Below are positions 14,737 through 21,131 of a stretch of 64,000 nt of DNA, piece by piece; position 1 is the stretch's first letter; every line of letters begins with the position of its first letter. This stretch comes from Marinitoga lauensis (GTDB lineage: Bacteria; Thermotogota; Thermotogae; Petrotogales; Petrotogaceae). Location: assembly GCF_004135675.1 (NCBI RefSeq), contig NZ_QHLX01000002.1, positions 186,001 through 250,000 of the forward strand, in the 5' to 3' direction. Below the pieces are notes generated by a model. The model was given only the letters and a program-made list of their open reading frames with translations, was not told the DNA's origin and did no database searches. The translations under genes and the position numbers were made by a program.

Positions 14737-15060
14737 GTGATTGTAACTACAGTTGGATATGTTCCTGGCTATGAGTTTGAAGAAGTTTTGGGAGTAGTTA
14801 TAGGAAATACTGTTCATTCAAAACATCTTGGAAGAGATATTGCTGCTGCATTTAAAACTTTAGCTGGTGGAGAATTAAAAGGATATACGGAAATGCTAAC
14901 TGAAGCAAGAAATATAGCTTATCAAAGAATGATTGATGAAGCAGAAAAATTAGGAGCAGATGCAATTATTGGTATGAGATTTTCAAGTTCTGCGGTAATG
15001 CAGGGTGCTGCTGAAATGGTAGCATATGGCACTGCTGTTAAATTAAAAAAGAAAGAATAA
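14737..15060 (+). CDS. YbjQ/UPF0145 (DUF74) protein
   Basis: 107 residues with the whole YbjQ pattern: TTVGYVPGYEFEEVLGVV, the central GGELKGYTEMLTEAR, and EKLGADAIIGMRF. The fold is a pentameric ring of unknown function. It starts at GTG (gggggaa upstream) 15 bp after the permease, so it belongs to the YtrA operon. Confidence 0.85.
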   Translation: MIVTTVGYVPGYEFEEVLGVVIGNTVHSKHLGRDIAAAFKTLAGGELKGYTEMLTEARNIAYQRMIDEAEKLGADAIIGMRFSSSAVMQGAAEMVAYGTAVKLKKKE

Positions 15061-15217
15061 TTAAAAATTTAATCTTTTTGTTTGATTTTGTTAATATTTA
15101 TTAATGTTATATAGATTTTACTTTGTAATCAATAATAAATGGATATAATCATCCATAATCATTGTTAGTTATTTTTTTCTCTTTTTTTCTTCTGTGTTAT
15201 TATTAAAATTGTATAAA

Positions 15218-15223
15218 TATAAT
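15218..15223 (+). promoter_or_regulatory. -10 box for leader/exporter transcript
   Basis: TATAAT, with only a weak -35 region (around 15195-15200). A start near 15229 would give a very short untranslated lead before the leader ribosome site at 15235. Confidence 0.5.
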
Positions 15224-15247
15224 AAAATTTCGAGAGGAGGTTATCAC

Positions 15248-15340
15248 ATGTTAATTAAAAGATTATTTGCATTATCAGTATCAGATAGTGGGAATAGTGT
15301 GCCTATTTGTGATAACCTTGCTCACATCAATCATTATTGA
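15248..15340 (+). CDS. 30-residue leader peptide of exporter operon
   Basis: ATG 7 nt after a perfect AGGAGG; reads MLIKRLFALSVSDSG and ends AHINHY. It has no similarity that I recognise. The strong SD, the following terminators and the complementary elements support a regulatory leader. In a sequence with many one-base deletions the exact peptide is less sure than its start. Confidence 0.6.
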   Translation: MLIKRLFALSVSDSGNSVPICDNLAHINHY

Positions 15341-15357
15341 TGATAAAGTAATTTATT

Positions 15358-15392
15358 TGGGCTATGGTTATCACGCCATAGCCCATTTTTTT
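15358..15392 (+). terminator. Leader terminator 1
   Basis: Perfect 10-bp stem TGGGCTATGG / CCATAGCCCA, loop TTATCACG, followed by seven T. It lies 17 nt after the leader stop codon. Confidence 0.85.
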
Positions 15393-15405
15393 ATCCTAAG
15401 ATATG

Positions 15406-15434
15406 GGCTATGGTTATCACACCATAGCCTTTTT
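15406..15434 (+). terminator. Leader terminator 2 (near copy of 1)
   Basis: Perfect 8-bp stem GGCTATGG / CCATAGCC, loop TTATCACA, followed by five T. Same stem and almost the same loop as terminator 1; the pair is a tandem duplication. Confidence 0.8.
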
Positions 15435-15459
15435 ATATTTTATAGAAAGGAGTGGAAAA

Positions 15460-15495
15460 ATGACTTTTAAAAGTGTAAGGTGGAATTTTAATTAA
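15460..15495 (+). CDS. Possible 11-residue ORF after the terminators
   Basis: ATG with aaaggag 9 nt upstream; reads MTFKSVRWNFN. The ribosome site is good, but so short an ORF may be chance or the relic of a longer one. Confidence 0.25.
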   Translation: MTFKSVRWNFN

Positions 15496-15502
15496 GTAAA
15501 TT

Positions 15503-15556
15503 ATGAAAAAAGGTGAGTTTGATGTAATTATTAATTCGCAGGAGGTTATACAATGA
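15503..15556 (+). CDS. Possible 17-residue ORF coupled to exporter
   Basis: MKKGEFDVIINSQEVIQ, whose TGA overlaps the exporter ATG (ATGA). It has no clear ribosome site of its own. It could couple translation or be chance. Confidence 0.2.
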   Translation: MKKGEFDVIINSQEVIQ

Positions 15557-17281
15557 AAGAAATTTTAAAATATGTTTTTAACCAGAAGAAGTATATTATT
15601 ATTGCTTCAATTGGGATGATTGGTGGGGTTGCGGCAGAATTAATTCTGCCGTATTTAAACAAAATTGTTATTGACAACATAATTATCAACAAACAAAAAG
15701 AGTTATTGTTTATAACTTTAACCGCTATATTTTTTATTACAATTTTCAGAGCATTGATGGGCTATGTTCAAGAATTTACTTTTGATTATGTTGGATCAAA
15801 AATTAATAAAGAATTAAAATATGATGTTTTTAAGCATATTCAAAAACTGCCATTTAAGTATTTTGATAAAACAAACACTGGCGAATTAATGTCGAGATTA
15901 GGTGAGGATATTGATAATATATGGATGGCGTTTGGTTTTGGAATTGGTTTAGCAATAGAATTTTCATTATATTTTATTTTAGGTAGTACTGTTTTATTTT
16001 ATTTAAATTGGAAATTAGCTTTAATTAGTTTAATATCAGCACCATTTATTGCCTATTTAGCAACAAAATTAGAAAAGGAAATAGGTAAAGCATTTGATAA
16101 AATTAGCGACCAGGCAGCTGTTATTAACACTACTGCACAGGAAAATATTTCAGGAGTTAGATTAGTTAAAGCTTTTGCCAGGGAAAAACATGAGATTTTA
16201 AAGTTTTTAAAGTTAAATAATGAAAATTATAATCTAAACATTATGAAATCAAGAATATGGGGAAAATATTTCCCAACTATTGAATTTTTAGGAAATGCTG
16301 CTTTAATACTGGTTATCACAATTGGTGGTATATTTGTAATAAATGAAAATATATCAATAGGAACTTTAGTTGCATTTAATGGTTATATGTGGATGATTGT
16401 CTGGCCAATGAGATTAATTGGATGGTTATCAAATATTTTATCTCAAGCAAATGCATCAGCAAAAAAATTGAAAAGATATTAATGGAAAAAGAAGAAGATT
16501 TTAAAGGTATTAATCCAGAAAATATAAAAGGAACTTTAGAATTTAAAAATGTTAGCTTTAAATATGATAATGAATATGTACTAAAAAATATTAATTTTAA
16601 AATTGAAGAAGGAAAAACACTGGCTATAATGGGACCTACAGGTTCAGGAAAAAGTACTTTAATATCTCTAATAGCTAGATTTTATGAAATTGAAGAAGGA
16701 GAAATTCTTTTAGATGGAATAAATATAAAGGACATTTCTTTAGATTCATTAAGGAAAATATCAGTTATATTTTCCAGGATACATTTTTATTCTCTGAATC
16801 AATAAAAGAAAATATAAAGTATGGAAAAGAAGATGCTACTGACGAAGAAATCATAATTGCCTGTAAAGAGGCTCAGGCACATGATTTTATTATGAATCTA
16901 CCAGATAAATACGATACAGTTGTTGGTGAAAGAGGTCTTGGATTGTCTGGTGGTCAAAAACAACGATTAACTATTGCTAGAGGTTTATTAAAACATGCTC
17001 CAATCATTATTTTCGATGATGCTACATCTGCTCTTGATATGGATACAGAGTATGAATTATTAAAAAGTGTATATTCTAAAGAAAAACAAAACACAAAAAT
17101 TATTATTGCTCATAGAATTTCTGCTGTAAAAAATGCCGATGAAATAATCTTTTTAGAAAATGGAGAAATTGTTGAAAGAGGTACACATGATGAACTATTA
17201 GAATTAAAAGGAAAATATTATGAAATATTCAAAGAACAATTTAAAGAGTTTGAAGATTTGATAAGAGATGAGGTGATTTAA
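15553..17281 (+). CDS. Heterodimeric ABC exporter subunit, TM287-like, two frameshifts
   Basis: Half-transporter: six-helix membrane domain (1-310), then an NBD with Walker A (GPTGSGKST), Q-loop, signature (LSGGQKQR) and H-loop. Walker B reads IIIFDDATSALD: the catalytic Glu is Asp, marking a degenerate ATP site as in T. maritima TM287 and BmrC. One missing A near 16467 and one near 16757 split the gene; restored length is 577 codons with the Q-loop IFQDTFLF regained. SD ggagg; stop overlaps the start of the partner. It forms a multidrug-type exporter with the next gene. Confidence 0.85.
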
Positions 17282-19021
17282 TGACTAAAATAAATACAGT
17301 TTTAAGAATATTTTCATATTTAAAACCATTTATTCCAAAAACAATATTTGTAATATTTTTAATGGTTATTGTTATGATAATAAATTTGATTAATCCATAT
17401 TTCTTTAAAGTTGCAATTGATACATATATTGCAAATAAAGATTTAAAAGGTTTAATGAGCATTGGTGGAATATTGGTAATCTTAAACTTAATTGCTATGA
17501 TTCTTTCAAGAATAAGAATTGTTGAAATGGGAAAGATTACTAATAAAATTGTTTTAAATATAAGACATGAATTATATGACCATATTCAAAAATTGTCATT
17601 TTCATTTTTTGATAGTAGACCTGTAGGAAAAATTTTAGCAAGAGTGGTAAATGATGTAAATTCTCTTCAACAGTTGTTTTCTAATAGTATAACAAGTCTG
17701 GTGCCAGAATTATTAACATTGTTATTTGTTGCTGGAATTATGTTTTATATGAATTTTAAACTGGCATTAGCCTCTATGATTATTCTACCTTTATTAATTA
17801 TTGGATTATTTTTATAGAAGTTATTAGCAGAAAAAGATGGATGAATTATAGAAATAATCGTTCAGAATTGAATGCTTTCACACATGAAAATATATCAGGT
17901 ATTAGAATTGTAAAGTCTTTTACCAGTGAAGAAAAAACAAACAGAAAATTTAAATTTTTAACAAATAAAATGATGAATTCTTTTGTAAATGCTGTAAAAA
18001 TAAATGATTGGTTTTGGGCCATGGTCTTTACCTCATGGGGAATTGGAAGTGTATTGGTCTTTTATTTAAGTGTAAAAATGATAGATTTAAATGAGGTTAC
18101 TGTAGGTACTGTTGTTGCATTTGTTGGATATATTGGAATGTTCTGGAGACCTATTATGAATTTAAGTAATTTTTATAATTCATTGGTAACAAATATTTCA
18201 GCAGGTGAAAGAATTTTTGAGATACTGGATATAAAACCAAATATAGTTAATCCAGAAAATGCTTTAATTATGCCAGAAATAAAAGGTGAAGTTGAATTTA
18301 AAAATGTATATTTTTCTTATGATAAGGATATTGTGTTGAATAATGTTTCTTTTAAAATTACCCTGGTGAAACCATAGCTCTTGTTGGTCCCACTGGAGCA
18401 GGAAAAACCACGATAGTAAATTTAATTAGTAGATTTTATGATCCACAAAAAGGAGATATTTTTATTGATAGTTATAATATAAAAAATGTGGATATTGAAT
18501 CATTGCGTTCTCAAATGGGAATTATGCTTCAGGATACATTTTTATTTTCTGATACGATAAAAAATAATATTAGATATGGAAAATTAGATGCTACTGATGA
18601 AGAAATAATTGAAGCTGCAAAAGCAGTTCATGCACACGAATTTATTATGAAATTAGAAAAAGGATATGATACAGATGTAAATGAAAGAGGAGTTAGATTG
18701 TCAATTGGAGAAAGACAACTTATTTCATTTGCAAGAGCATTATTAGCAAATCCAAGAATATTAATTCTCGATGAGGCTACTTCAAATATCGATACACATA
18801 CAGAACAATTAGTTCAGGATGGAATTAAGAAATTATTAAAAGGAAGAACCTCTTTTGTTATTGCTCATAGACTTTCGACAATTAGAAATGCTGACAGAAT
18901 ATTCTATATTGATAATGGTGAAATTATTGAGACTGGAAATCATGATGAATTAATAGCCAAAAGAGGATATTATTATAATCTATACATTTCACAATTTAAA
19001 TTTTTAGAATTAGGTGCATAA
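17281..19021 (+). CDS. Heterodimeric ABC exporter subunit, TM288-like, two frameshifts
   Basis: Partner half-transporter. The membrane domain (1-330) is followed by an NBD with Walker A (GPTGAGKTT), Q-loop (MLQDTFLF), an altered signature LSIGER, and canonical Walker B (ILILDEATSNID). The canonical Glu here and the Asp in the first subunit, plus the altered signature, give the asymmetric sites of TM287/288-type exporters. One T is missing near 17815 and one near 18361; restored length is 581 codons. Starts at the last base of the first subunit's stop (TAATG). Confidence 0.85.
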
Positions 19022-19475: not shown

Positions 19476-21131
19476 ATGGCAGAAAAAATAAAAGATGAGA
19501 AATTAGAAAAAAAAGAAATAAATCATTTTTTGCTCGGATTATTTAAAAAGTATTGGAAAAGACAGGTAATTGCTATTATTTTTATAAGTTTAATGGCATT
19601 ATCAATATTGATTTTTCCAATATTGATAAAATATACAATAGATACAGTAATACCATCTAAAAATATTCATATATTATTTAAGTACATATTATTAATGATA
19701 GCAACTCTTTTTGGAATTTCGTTAATAACCTATTTTGGAGAAGTTATATTTGAATTTAATGCTTTAAAAGCAAAAAAAGATATTAGAAAAGAAATAATTA
19801 TAAAGTTAACAAAATTGCCGTATGATTTTTTTATGAAGATAAATTCTGGAGAATTAATTTCAAAATTAATGTCTGATCTTGAAATGGTTGGAGTTGTAGT
19901 TTCACAGGTATTTCCAATTTTGGTATTATCGGTTTTACAAATAACAGGAATAATTGTAATGCTCTTTTATTTAAATTGGAAATTAGCATTAGTTCCAATT
20001 ATTTTGACTATATGTTCTTTATTAATTTTAAAAATAATTAATAAAAAAGCAGAAAAACTTTCTATTCGTGAAAGAGAAGTGTTTGGAGAAATATCAAATA
20101 TGTTGGTAGATGTTATAAATAATATGAAAACAATTAAATTAATGGCACATAATGATTGGATATCTAATATGATTGATAATTATCTTGACAATCATTATAA
20201 AATAAGTAAACGATTTACTAAATGGATAAAATTAACAGGTGCGTTGGGTAATTCTATAAATGGTATGATAACAGTGGGAGTATTTAGTTATGGAGGTTAT
20301 TTAATAATAAAAGATGAAATAACTCTGGGGACATTAATTGCTTTCTGGACATATATACAAACTTTAATGAACCCCTTACAATTATTAATGAAAGTAAATA
20401 CTGTATTAAGAAGTTCCTGGGGTGGTATTAAAAGAGTTATTGAAATAACAAAATATGAAGAAGAACATATTCCAGAACTAAAAAGTGAAAATAACATAAA
20501 ATCTATAAAACTTAAAAATATTGAATTCAGTTTTGATAATAAAAAGATTTTAAATTCAATAGAATTAAATTTAGAAAAAGGAAAAATAACAGGTATAATT
20601 GGTGAAAACGGTGCAGGAAAGACTACGTTGTTTAACGTATTAATGGGATTATATAAAGCTAACAGAGGAAAAATAATATTTAATGATAATGAAAATGCAA
20701 ATATAGGTCTTTTAAGAAAAAATATTGGATTTGTTGAACAGGAACCAGAGTTGTTTAAGAATTGTACGATAAAAGAGAATATATTAATGGGTAGGGAAAT
20801 CTCAGAAGAAAAGTTAAAAGAAATTTTAGAAGTAACTGGAATAAATAAAATAGTATCAAAATTCGAAAAAGGTATAGATGAAAAAGTCAAAAACATAAAT
20901 TTATCTGGAGGTCAAAAATAAATAATTGCTATAGCCAGGGCTTTAATAGATGATCCTCAAATTATATTACTCGATGAATTTACATCTGCAATGGATTCAA
21001 AAAATGAGGAATTAATTCACAATATTCTGATTAAATTAAAAGAAAAAGGAAAAATAATAGGAATAATAACTCATAGAGACTCTACTCTAAAAATATGTGA
21101 TGAAATATATGAAATTAAAAAAGGAGAATAA
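19476..21131 (+). CDS. ABC exporter with in-frame stop in NBD
   Basis: Half-size ABC exporter: six helices in residues 1-320, NBD with Walker A (GENGAGKTT) and signature LSGGQK. Directly after GGQK there is TAA where Gln (CAA) is expected; the frame continues without change as IIAIARALIDDP and Walker B (IILLDEFTSAMD), ending at 21131. This is a base substitution, unlike the one-base deletions elsewhere in the window, so it may be a true nonsense change, a C-to-T error, or readthrough. Walker B has Glu (DEF). There is no C39 peptidase domain. It may export the product of a nearby small peptide gene or act in drug efflux. Confidence 0.7.

Follow-up and report, generated by a model that had tools for sequence, protein, structure and literature searches.

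A probable ribosome-mediated transcription attenuator before a heterodimeric ABC exporter in Marinitoga lauensis

What does a short reading frame followed by two intrinsic terminators do in front of the genes of an ABC exporter? The question is raised by a stretch of 64,000 nucleotides of Marinitoga lauensis (contig NZ_QHLX01000002.1, positions 186,001 to 250,000), here called the window, in which all positions below are counted. We read the site as a ribosome-mediated transcription attenuator before a heterodimeric ABC exporter, with a probability of roughly 80%. The leader Shine-Dalgarno (SD) region would pair with a downstream element, E2, as anti-antiterminator, and E2 with the 5' half of the first terminator, T1, as antiterminator. 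The leader RNA probably induces the exporter upon a stall in protein synthesis, since the rival pairings are kept in relatives although their letters have changed.

Leader, terminators and exporter genes at the site

The features of the site are as follows.

15195-15203, + strand: candidate promoter, an extended -10-like element (TGTTATTAT) picked by eye and absent from the neutral scan; no good -35
15236-15240, + strand: leader SD, GGAGG
15236-15248, + strand: element 1, leader SD plus start region (GGAGGTTATCACA), partner of E2 in the putative anti-antiterminator; covariation
15248-15340, + strand: leader ORF of 30 codons (MLIKRLFALSVSDSGNSVPICDNLAHINHY), with in-frame length changes in six genus members
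15290-15301, + strand: GGGAATAGTGTG, matching GG-N6-TG-Y-G, a possible RNA polymerase pause right before E2
15308-15319, + strand: E2 box 1 (TGTGATAACCTT), the switch strand common to SD and terminator
15320-15324, + strand: E2 box 2 (GCTCA), possible partner of 15358-15362, the foot of the T1 5' arm
15358-15385, + strand: terminator T1 (neutral scan); SD-region sequence recurs in its loop and upper 5' arm (15366-15374)
15405-15430, + strand: terminator T2 (neutral scan); stem sequence in common with T1, loop element at 15412-15421
15460-15495, + strand: mini-ORF MTFKSVRWNFN, 3' of T2
15553-17281, + strand: ABC-A, first exporter subunit; frame interrupted in the assembly (several ORFs), open in G001-G003
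17281-19021, + strand: ABC-B, second exporter subunit; frame interrupted in the assembly (several ORFs), open in G001-G003

A preliminary description, made from the letters alone, had placed here a 30-codon leader ORF with a strong SD, two intrinsic terminators with loop copies at 15366 and 15412, and an exact complement of the leader SD region. All three were confirmed, with coordinates right to the base: the reverse complement of 15238-15248 stands, letter for letter, at 15308-15318 (TGTGATAACCT), and the neutral scan finds both terminators. The 9-mer GGTTATCAC lies at 15239, 15366 and 15412 on the + strand and at 15309-15317 on the - strand; of its six matches in the window, where 0.22 would be expected, four fall within 182 bases. 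RNA folding, suggested there as a check, gave -80.9 kcal/mol for 15218-15445 as compared to a shuffled mean of -43.4 (z -8.93). Letters resembling the extended -10-like element were also found upstream of the leader in L013 and L015. A YbjQ-family gene lies just 5' of the site (14737-15060, + strand). By eye, L004 has a similar ORF in the same place, and in L003/L014 (G001) the DNA ahead of the leader is unlike that of other genus members and resembles the end of a mobile element.

The pattern GG-N6-TG-Y-G, the full pattern of an elemental pause, occurs in 6/6 genus leaders, in 0/9 others and in 1-3% of shuffled genus leaders. It fits a pause that may give the ribosome time to load ahead of E2 synthesis; the elemental pause features G-10 and Y-1 G+1 appear in the available text of PMC12288461. 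By eye, GGGAATAGTGT was seen in the genus leaders (15290-15301), in another reading frame in G011 (L009), and nearly so in G062 (L095).

The target had been taken for a heterodimeric exporter, and this held: two adjacent ABC half-transporter genes were present in 12/12 loci examined (counted without G000, G004 and G005), with Walker B DD in the first and DE in the second. We take the DD to be a degenerate Walker B glutamate. Sequencing indels are the likely cause of the interrupted ABC-A and ABC-B frames, because completeness of the assembly is low (87.9%, against 99-100% in six other genus members). The first subunit of G004 is spread over two contigs. When the first subunit of G003 was searched against the PDB, the best matches were eukaryotic ABCB-type proteins (E to 2e-153); among the bacterial chains listed were Sav1866, TM_0288, its 3qf4 partner chain and YheI, presumably BmrC (E 2e-100 to 4e-93). 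Further 3' on the + strand (19476-20921) there is a third ABC exporter ORF, 481 amino acids long and with a truncated nucleotide-binding domain. Mini-ORFs were also seen 3' of the terminators in the window and in L013, L014, L015, L009 and L006 (MTFKSVRWNFN, MILKFVRWVFN, MTFKNVGFFLNE, MVFNF, MTKKVIKN, MNKLIRGITEN). Between T2 and the exporter, L017, L013 and L015 carry a 39-41 codon ORF with SYYEGF and KD(I/L)L(I/L)ELKR in common, of which none was seen in the window; other small ORFs were noted by eye in L006, L008 and L009.

The same plan in relatives and its covariation

A leader SD, an E2 and a terminator that repeats the SD sequence in its loop and upper 5' arm make up a plan that we found at 15 loci in 15 genomes. 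The site shares it with 14 further genomes of the class, across two families, and in 13 of these it precedes ABC exporter genes. E2 lies within the leader ORF or just 3' of it (right after the stop codon in G086 and G087). In G005 (L016) an orphan leader with T1 was seen, with no exporter genes after it.

The loci came from several searches, all kept to the phylum of the window. Homologues of the first piece of ABC-A, at E <= 1e-40, came from 10 of 61 genomes, its own included. When leader-region DNA was searched against 101 genomes, six genomes of a single genus (G000-G005) reached best E-values of at most 1.8e-26, and the best of the others was 1.5e-4. Two other genera of the family, G007 and G011, have the same plan in different letters before ABC-A homologues. 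The region is cut by a contig end in G013 and G016, the latter with one terminator only, and no plan was seen in G041, whose ABC-A homologue has 33% identity. The intact subunit matched 63 of 103 genomes at E <= 1e-100. A scan of those exporter loci and of 60 upstream stretches gave the plan in G062, G064, G075, G087 and G089 of family f10; of the stretches upstream of other exporter matches, two of which were as short as 140 and 240 bases, 4/60 carried it, and a set of 40 among the 60 held none.

Pattern searches and a covariance model, R1, added two loci. The pattern GGGATAGCTNTNCCTCGAAG occurred at 17 places in 16/103 genomes; the two exact ones (G007, G011) were accepted, and the 15 with two mismatches were checked by script alone. 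The pattern GGGTTGYCCRATG occurred at 18 places in 18/103 genomes; six were accepted, G082 being added by pattern search, and the other 12 had no three-way score of 14 or more. R1 gave 12 strong matches (E <= 1.3e-8), with E-values that are circular, since 11 were its seeds and the twelfth, G005, scored as the seed G004 does; it found neither G007 nor G011. We took in G086 (E 0.011) after looking at its SD, E2, terminator and exporter pair, and rejected G085 (E 0.005), apparently coding sequence, and G088 (E 0.026), for want of a fitting terminator. Weaker matches (E 0.1-1: second sites in G002 and G000, G036, G048, G069 twice, G094, G054) all stayed below a three-way score of 15, and two further matches were the opposite strand of known sites. 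Three marine MAG loci of 28% identity from a contig search were set aside; R1 had no match in one of these genomes, which is uninformative.

The three-way scan, devised after the site was known, scores SD, E2 and terminator top together. It gave 22 for each of the two terminators in the window, where the next best were 16 and 15. In 142 other loci (367,899 bases, 90 terminator-like sites) the best was 17, then 14. Eight dinucleotide shuffles of the window reached 14, a weak control with 1-3 terminator-like sites each, and two accepted loci out of 15, G011 and G086, escape the scan. In Rfam the window had no matches at the gathering threshold, and seven loci searched at E up to 1 had five, all under the gathering score.

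Alignment of relatives, the other check that had been suggested, showed that the three-way complementarity and the hairpins are kept and covary between lineages, with compensatory changes between E2 and both partners, SD and T1. The SD:E2 count took in 11 of the 15 sequences and left out G005 (a near copy of G004), G007 and G011 (other register) and G086 (found later). Both sides changed at 5 of 11 pairs (reached by 22/500 shuffles), with 11 further pair types (20/500); 96.7% of cells were paired as against 84.0% in shuffles, and the covariation score was 0.451 as against 0.205, each reached by 0/500. When the partner was slid by 1-3 columns, only 27-51% were paired. E2:T1 was counted on all 15 sequences in a hand alignment: in the core, p3-p10, 117/120 cells were paired and both sides changed at five of the eight positions (p3, p5, p6, p8, p10), while pairing at the flanks p1 and p2 was poor outside the genus. 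Independent events are few in these counts, since six of the sequences are close relatives from one genus.

Concerted changes in SD, E2 and T1 are seen at p3, p5 and p6. At p3, the genus has T facing A (SD and T1) and f10 has G facing C, the T1 of G089 excepted; at p5, A with T is replaced by G with C in G087; at p6, T with A alternates with C with G, the SD of G001 giving G-U. Over 14 sequences, E2 binds its own T1 top with a mean of -15.3 kcal/mol, compared to -7.7 across lineages, and its own SD with -21.6, compared to -12.4. Single cross-lineage duplexes equal own ones (up to -16.2 for E2:T1 and -25.5 for SD:E2), probably because f10 elements are G+C rich. At 37 C, the energies of SD:E2, E2:T1 and T1 differ by no more than 4.0 kcal/mol in 8/15 loci and by 5.6-9.8 kcal/mol in seven (all f10 but G064, plus G002), these being duplex energies without loop costs.

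Proposed switch, second terminator and signal

The pairings suggest how the leader may work. With no ribosome, E2 would pair with the leader SD and start, T1 would fold and transcription would end. Under normal translation, ribosomes would sit over E2 during T1 synthesis, and transcription would again end. A ribosome parked on the SD and early codons would mask the SD and set E2 free to take the T1 loop and upper 5' arm, possibly also the arm base, ahead of the emergence of the T1 3' arm. Once E2:T1 had formed, RNA polymerase would read through into the exporter, and where T2 is present the freed T1 3' arm would pair with the T2 5' arm, so that T2 would be disabled too.

We modelled these states by equilibrium folding, which does not prove switching. 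Without a ribosome, T1 reached at least 0.93 in 15/15 loci and SD:E2 at least 0.89 in 13/15 (G011 0.22, G086 0.37). With E2 covered, T1 was at least 0.91 in 14/15 (G087 0.64). With the start covered, E2:T1 exceeded 0.5 at some length ahead of the complete T1 3' arm in 12/15, and never did so in partial transcripts of G062, G064 and G089; once the T-tract was made, T1 was still at least 0.91 in 10/15. In those ten loci equilibrium thus favours T1 even when the SD is blocked, and antitermination would have to be kinetic. The site has, then, a translatable leader ORF with an SD 5' of a terminator, an intrinsic terminator predicted between leader and target gene, and a putative antiterminator that by covariation and energies overlaps the terminator 5' half. 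The candidate anti-antiterminator helix, SD:E2, is backed by covariation, and its opening by a ribosome is a modelled step.

The antiterminator had been described as pairing with the terminator loop. The E2:T1 pairing itself is kept, but it is not confined to the loop: E2 pairs with the T1 loop plus 2-4 bases of the predicted 5' arm (14 loci), and in the window 15308-15324 is able to pair with 15358-15375, that is, 5' arm plus loop. Pairing of box 2 with the base of the T1 arm is a probable further part of the antiterminator, with moderate support. It reads GCTCA/TGGGC in the genus and TGGAG/CTCCA in most f10 loci. Its shuffle test gave p 0.14 in the window, 0.018 to 0.76 singly over the 15 sequences, and a combined p of 0.001 over 11 of them, chosen without near copies and without G086 and non-independent. 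For box 2, G082 and G087 gave no support, G011 and G086 little.

A second terminator lies within 60 bases in seven loci; in the f10 loci examined for terminators there was none within reach. The loop complementarity noted at first does extend to both terminators in the window. The T2 loop carries the E2-binding element in only two of the seven tandem loci (G000, G004), however, and with f10 loci lacking T2, double gating by a loop element in both terminators did not survive as a general rule. The same switch could still have T2 as a second gate read directly by E2 and not through the T1 3' arm. E2:T2 is about equal to E2:T1 in G000 and G004 (-20.4 and -19.5 kcal/mol), but it amounts to only -5.0 to -9.1 in the five loci whose T2 is without the element, and one E2 is unable to occupy two terminators simultaneously. 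By comparison, the T2 5' arm is able to pair with the T1 3' arm in 7/7 tandem loci (5-12 bp), which suggests a relay. In the model, with E2 on the T1 5' half, this pairing held at 0.52 or more until the last bases of T2, ending with 6 bases left in G011, 4 in G001 and G002, 2 in G003, G004 and G007, and 0 in G000. When T2 and its U-tract were complete, T2 won at 0.82-0.99 in five of the seven (G001-G004, G011) and stood at 0.55 in G007 and 0.01 in G000; thus the relay too would be kinetic, a point in favour of the direct gate, which on balance we hold to be unlikely. Another reading of the tandem terminators of common stem is a recent T1 duplication, T1 and T2 resembling copies of each other in the genus; as a control, only two unrelated tandem pairs (6 and 4 bp) were available, too few for statistics. 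If the relay is real, such terminators would answer how one antiterminator opens two.

What the leader senses is suggested by its geometry. Spacing from start to E2 in the genus is 54/57/57/60/63/69 nt, all multiples of 3, and such in-frame length changes imply that the leader is translated, as had been supposed. E2 lies 37-94 nt 3' of the start codon, a place kept across loci, so that it stays uncovered when a ribosome is held up at the start or on the first codons, which speaks for a general sensor of early stalling. Apart from the residues that E2 encodes, conservation of the leader peptides does not extend across lineages, and no common drug-arrest motif is therefore evident. Antibiotics may be the signal. 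We tentatively propose, as one possible form of the switch, an initiation checkpoint that is independent of the peptide, in which the leader SD would be the sensor and the SD copy in the terminator the effector, a loaded, unmoving ribosome would be needed, and tandem terminators would act as a relay.

Three readings do without such a ribosome-position sensor or give it another cue. The repeat shared by SD and terminator loop could be the binding site of a regulatory protein, with E2 merely sequestering the SD. Its presence in two structured places, exposed in the loop of T1, would suit a protein; the repeat varies by lineage (GGTTATCAC; AGCTATCC; GGGTTGTCC; GGGTTGCCC) while its complementarity to E2 is kept, and the stretches of E2 that pair with SD and with T1 are offset from each other in G007, which leaves this reading a slim chance. 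A mere strong insulating terminator region, its complementarity a by-product of duplication of the SD segment, would account for the copy-like T1 and T2 of the genus and for E2 as an inverted copy of the SD region; such copies would diverge, yet E2, SD and T1 co-change at p3, p5 and p6, and we consider it very improbable. An amino-acid-starvation attenuator of the trp/his type has identical 1:2 / 2:3 / 3:4 logic and single leaders with runs (SSSS and FFF in G064), but is scarcely credible with 14 other leaders free of residue runs of three or more, none common between lineages, and an exporter pair as target.

Comparison with known attenuators

The logic of the stall-responsive leader is known from BmrB- and VmlR-like attenuation, of which the SD-based arrangement is a variant. 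In the bmrBCD leader of Bacillus subtilis, as presented in parts of PMC4191407, a leader ORF and predicted terminator, antiterminator and anti-antiterminator precede the ABC exporter genes bmrC and bmrD; leader translation is needed and lincomycin, erythromycin and chloramphenicol are inducers. The likeness lies in a leader ORF with three rival structures before an ABC exporter pair. The bmrB terminator lies inside the 53-codon ORF, and since all three structures fall in nt 60-162, the leader SD is outside the anti-antiterminator, the role of which its authors call unclear; here, by contrast, the SD is the putative anti-antiterminator strand and the terminator is 3' of the ORF, bmrB being compared by its description. 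For vmlR of B. subtilis, the relevant parts of PMC9226507 describe a stalled uORF ribosome that prevents the anti-antiterminator, so the anti-antiterminator, antiterminator and terminator logic is shared. Differences are its uORF, Met-Ile-Asn in the bulge of the anti-antiterminator hairpin, a single-stranded upstream SD and an ABCF factor as target; the word tandem is absent from the text available.

In tlrB (yxjB) of B. subtilis, according to sections of PMC6851288, a pause lets translation begin before structure forms, and it is the stalled ribosome that obstructs the base of the terminator. Leader peptide, terminator and possible pause are alike; unlike here, no antiterminator was identified and the sequestered SD is that of the target gene, not the leader's, a weak hairpin at the leader SD being mentioned for B. 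pumilus. In mef(E)/mel, as recounted in portions of PMC4335068, macrolides induce transcription attenuation of an efflux operon with an MTASMRLR leader, and the anti-attenuator is an 18-base repeat pair 174 bases apart; the same paper tells of two adjacent terminators in erm(K), so tandem terminators alone are not new. The efflux target recalls the former and the two terminators the latter; an SD copy in the terminator loop is described for neither in those portions. Across bmrB, vmlR, tlrB and mef(E), the open-access text available does not describe a leader SD as anti-antiterminator strand together with a terminator copy of it.

ABC-leaders, in the main text of PMC2965389 as available, are attenuators predicted, with their antiterminators, ahead of ABC transporters, in one case ahead of a multidrug export operon of lactobacilli; their mechanism is given as undetermined, possibly aptamer-like, and no word beginning Thermotog occurs there. 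We found no report of exporter-leader attenuation in this class in the open-access literature, outside which most subscription papers and supplements lie, and in the same literature no paper on Marinitoga with a leader peptide. The available text of PMC4833913 and PMC8632094 describes no ABC exporter leader for Thermotoga, and the main text of the latter (26 genomes, Thermotogae included), so far as available, does not mention an ABC transporter. The studied drug-type attenuators compared, in the partial texts cited, come from Bacillus and streptococci, and the present one comes from another class and two of its families, where a compact design rewritten in different letters in three lineages offers a natural test of SD-based sensing.
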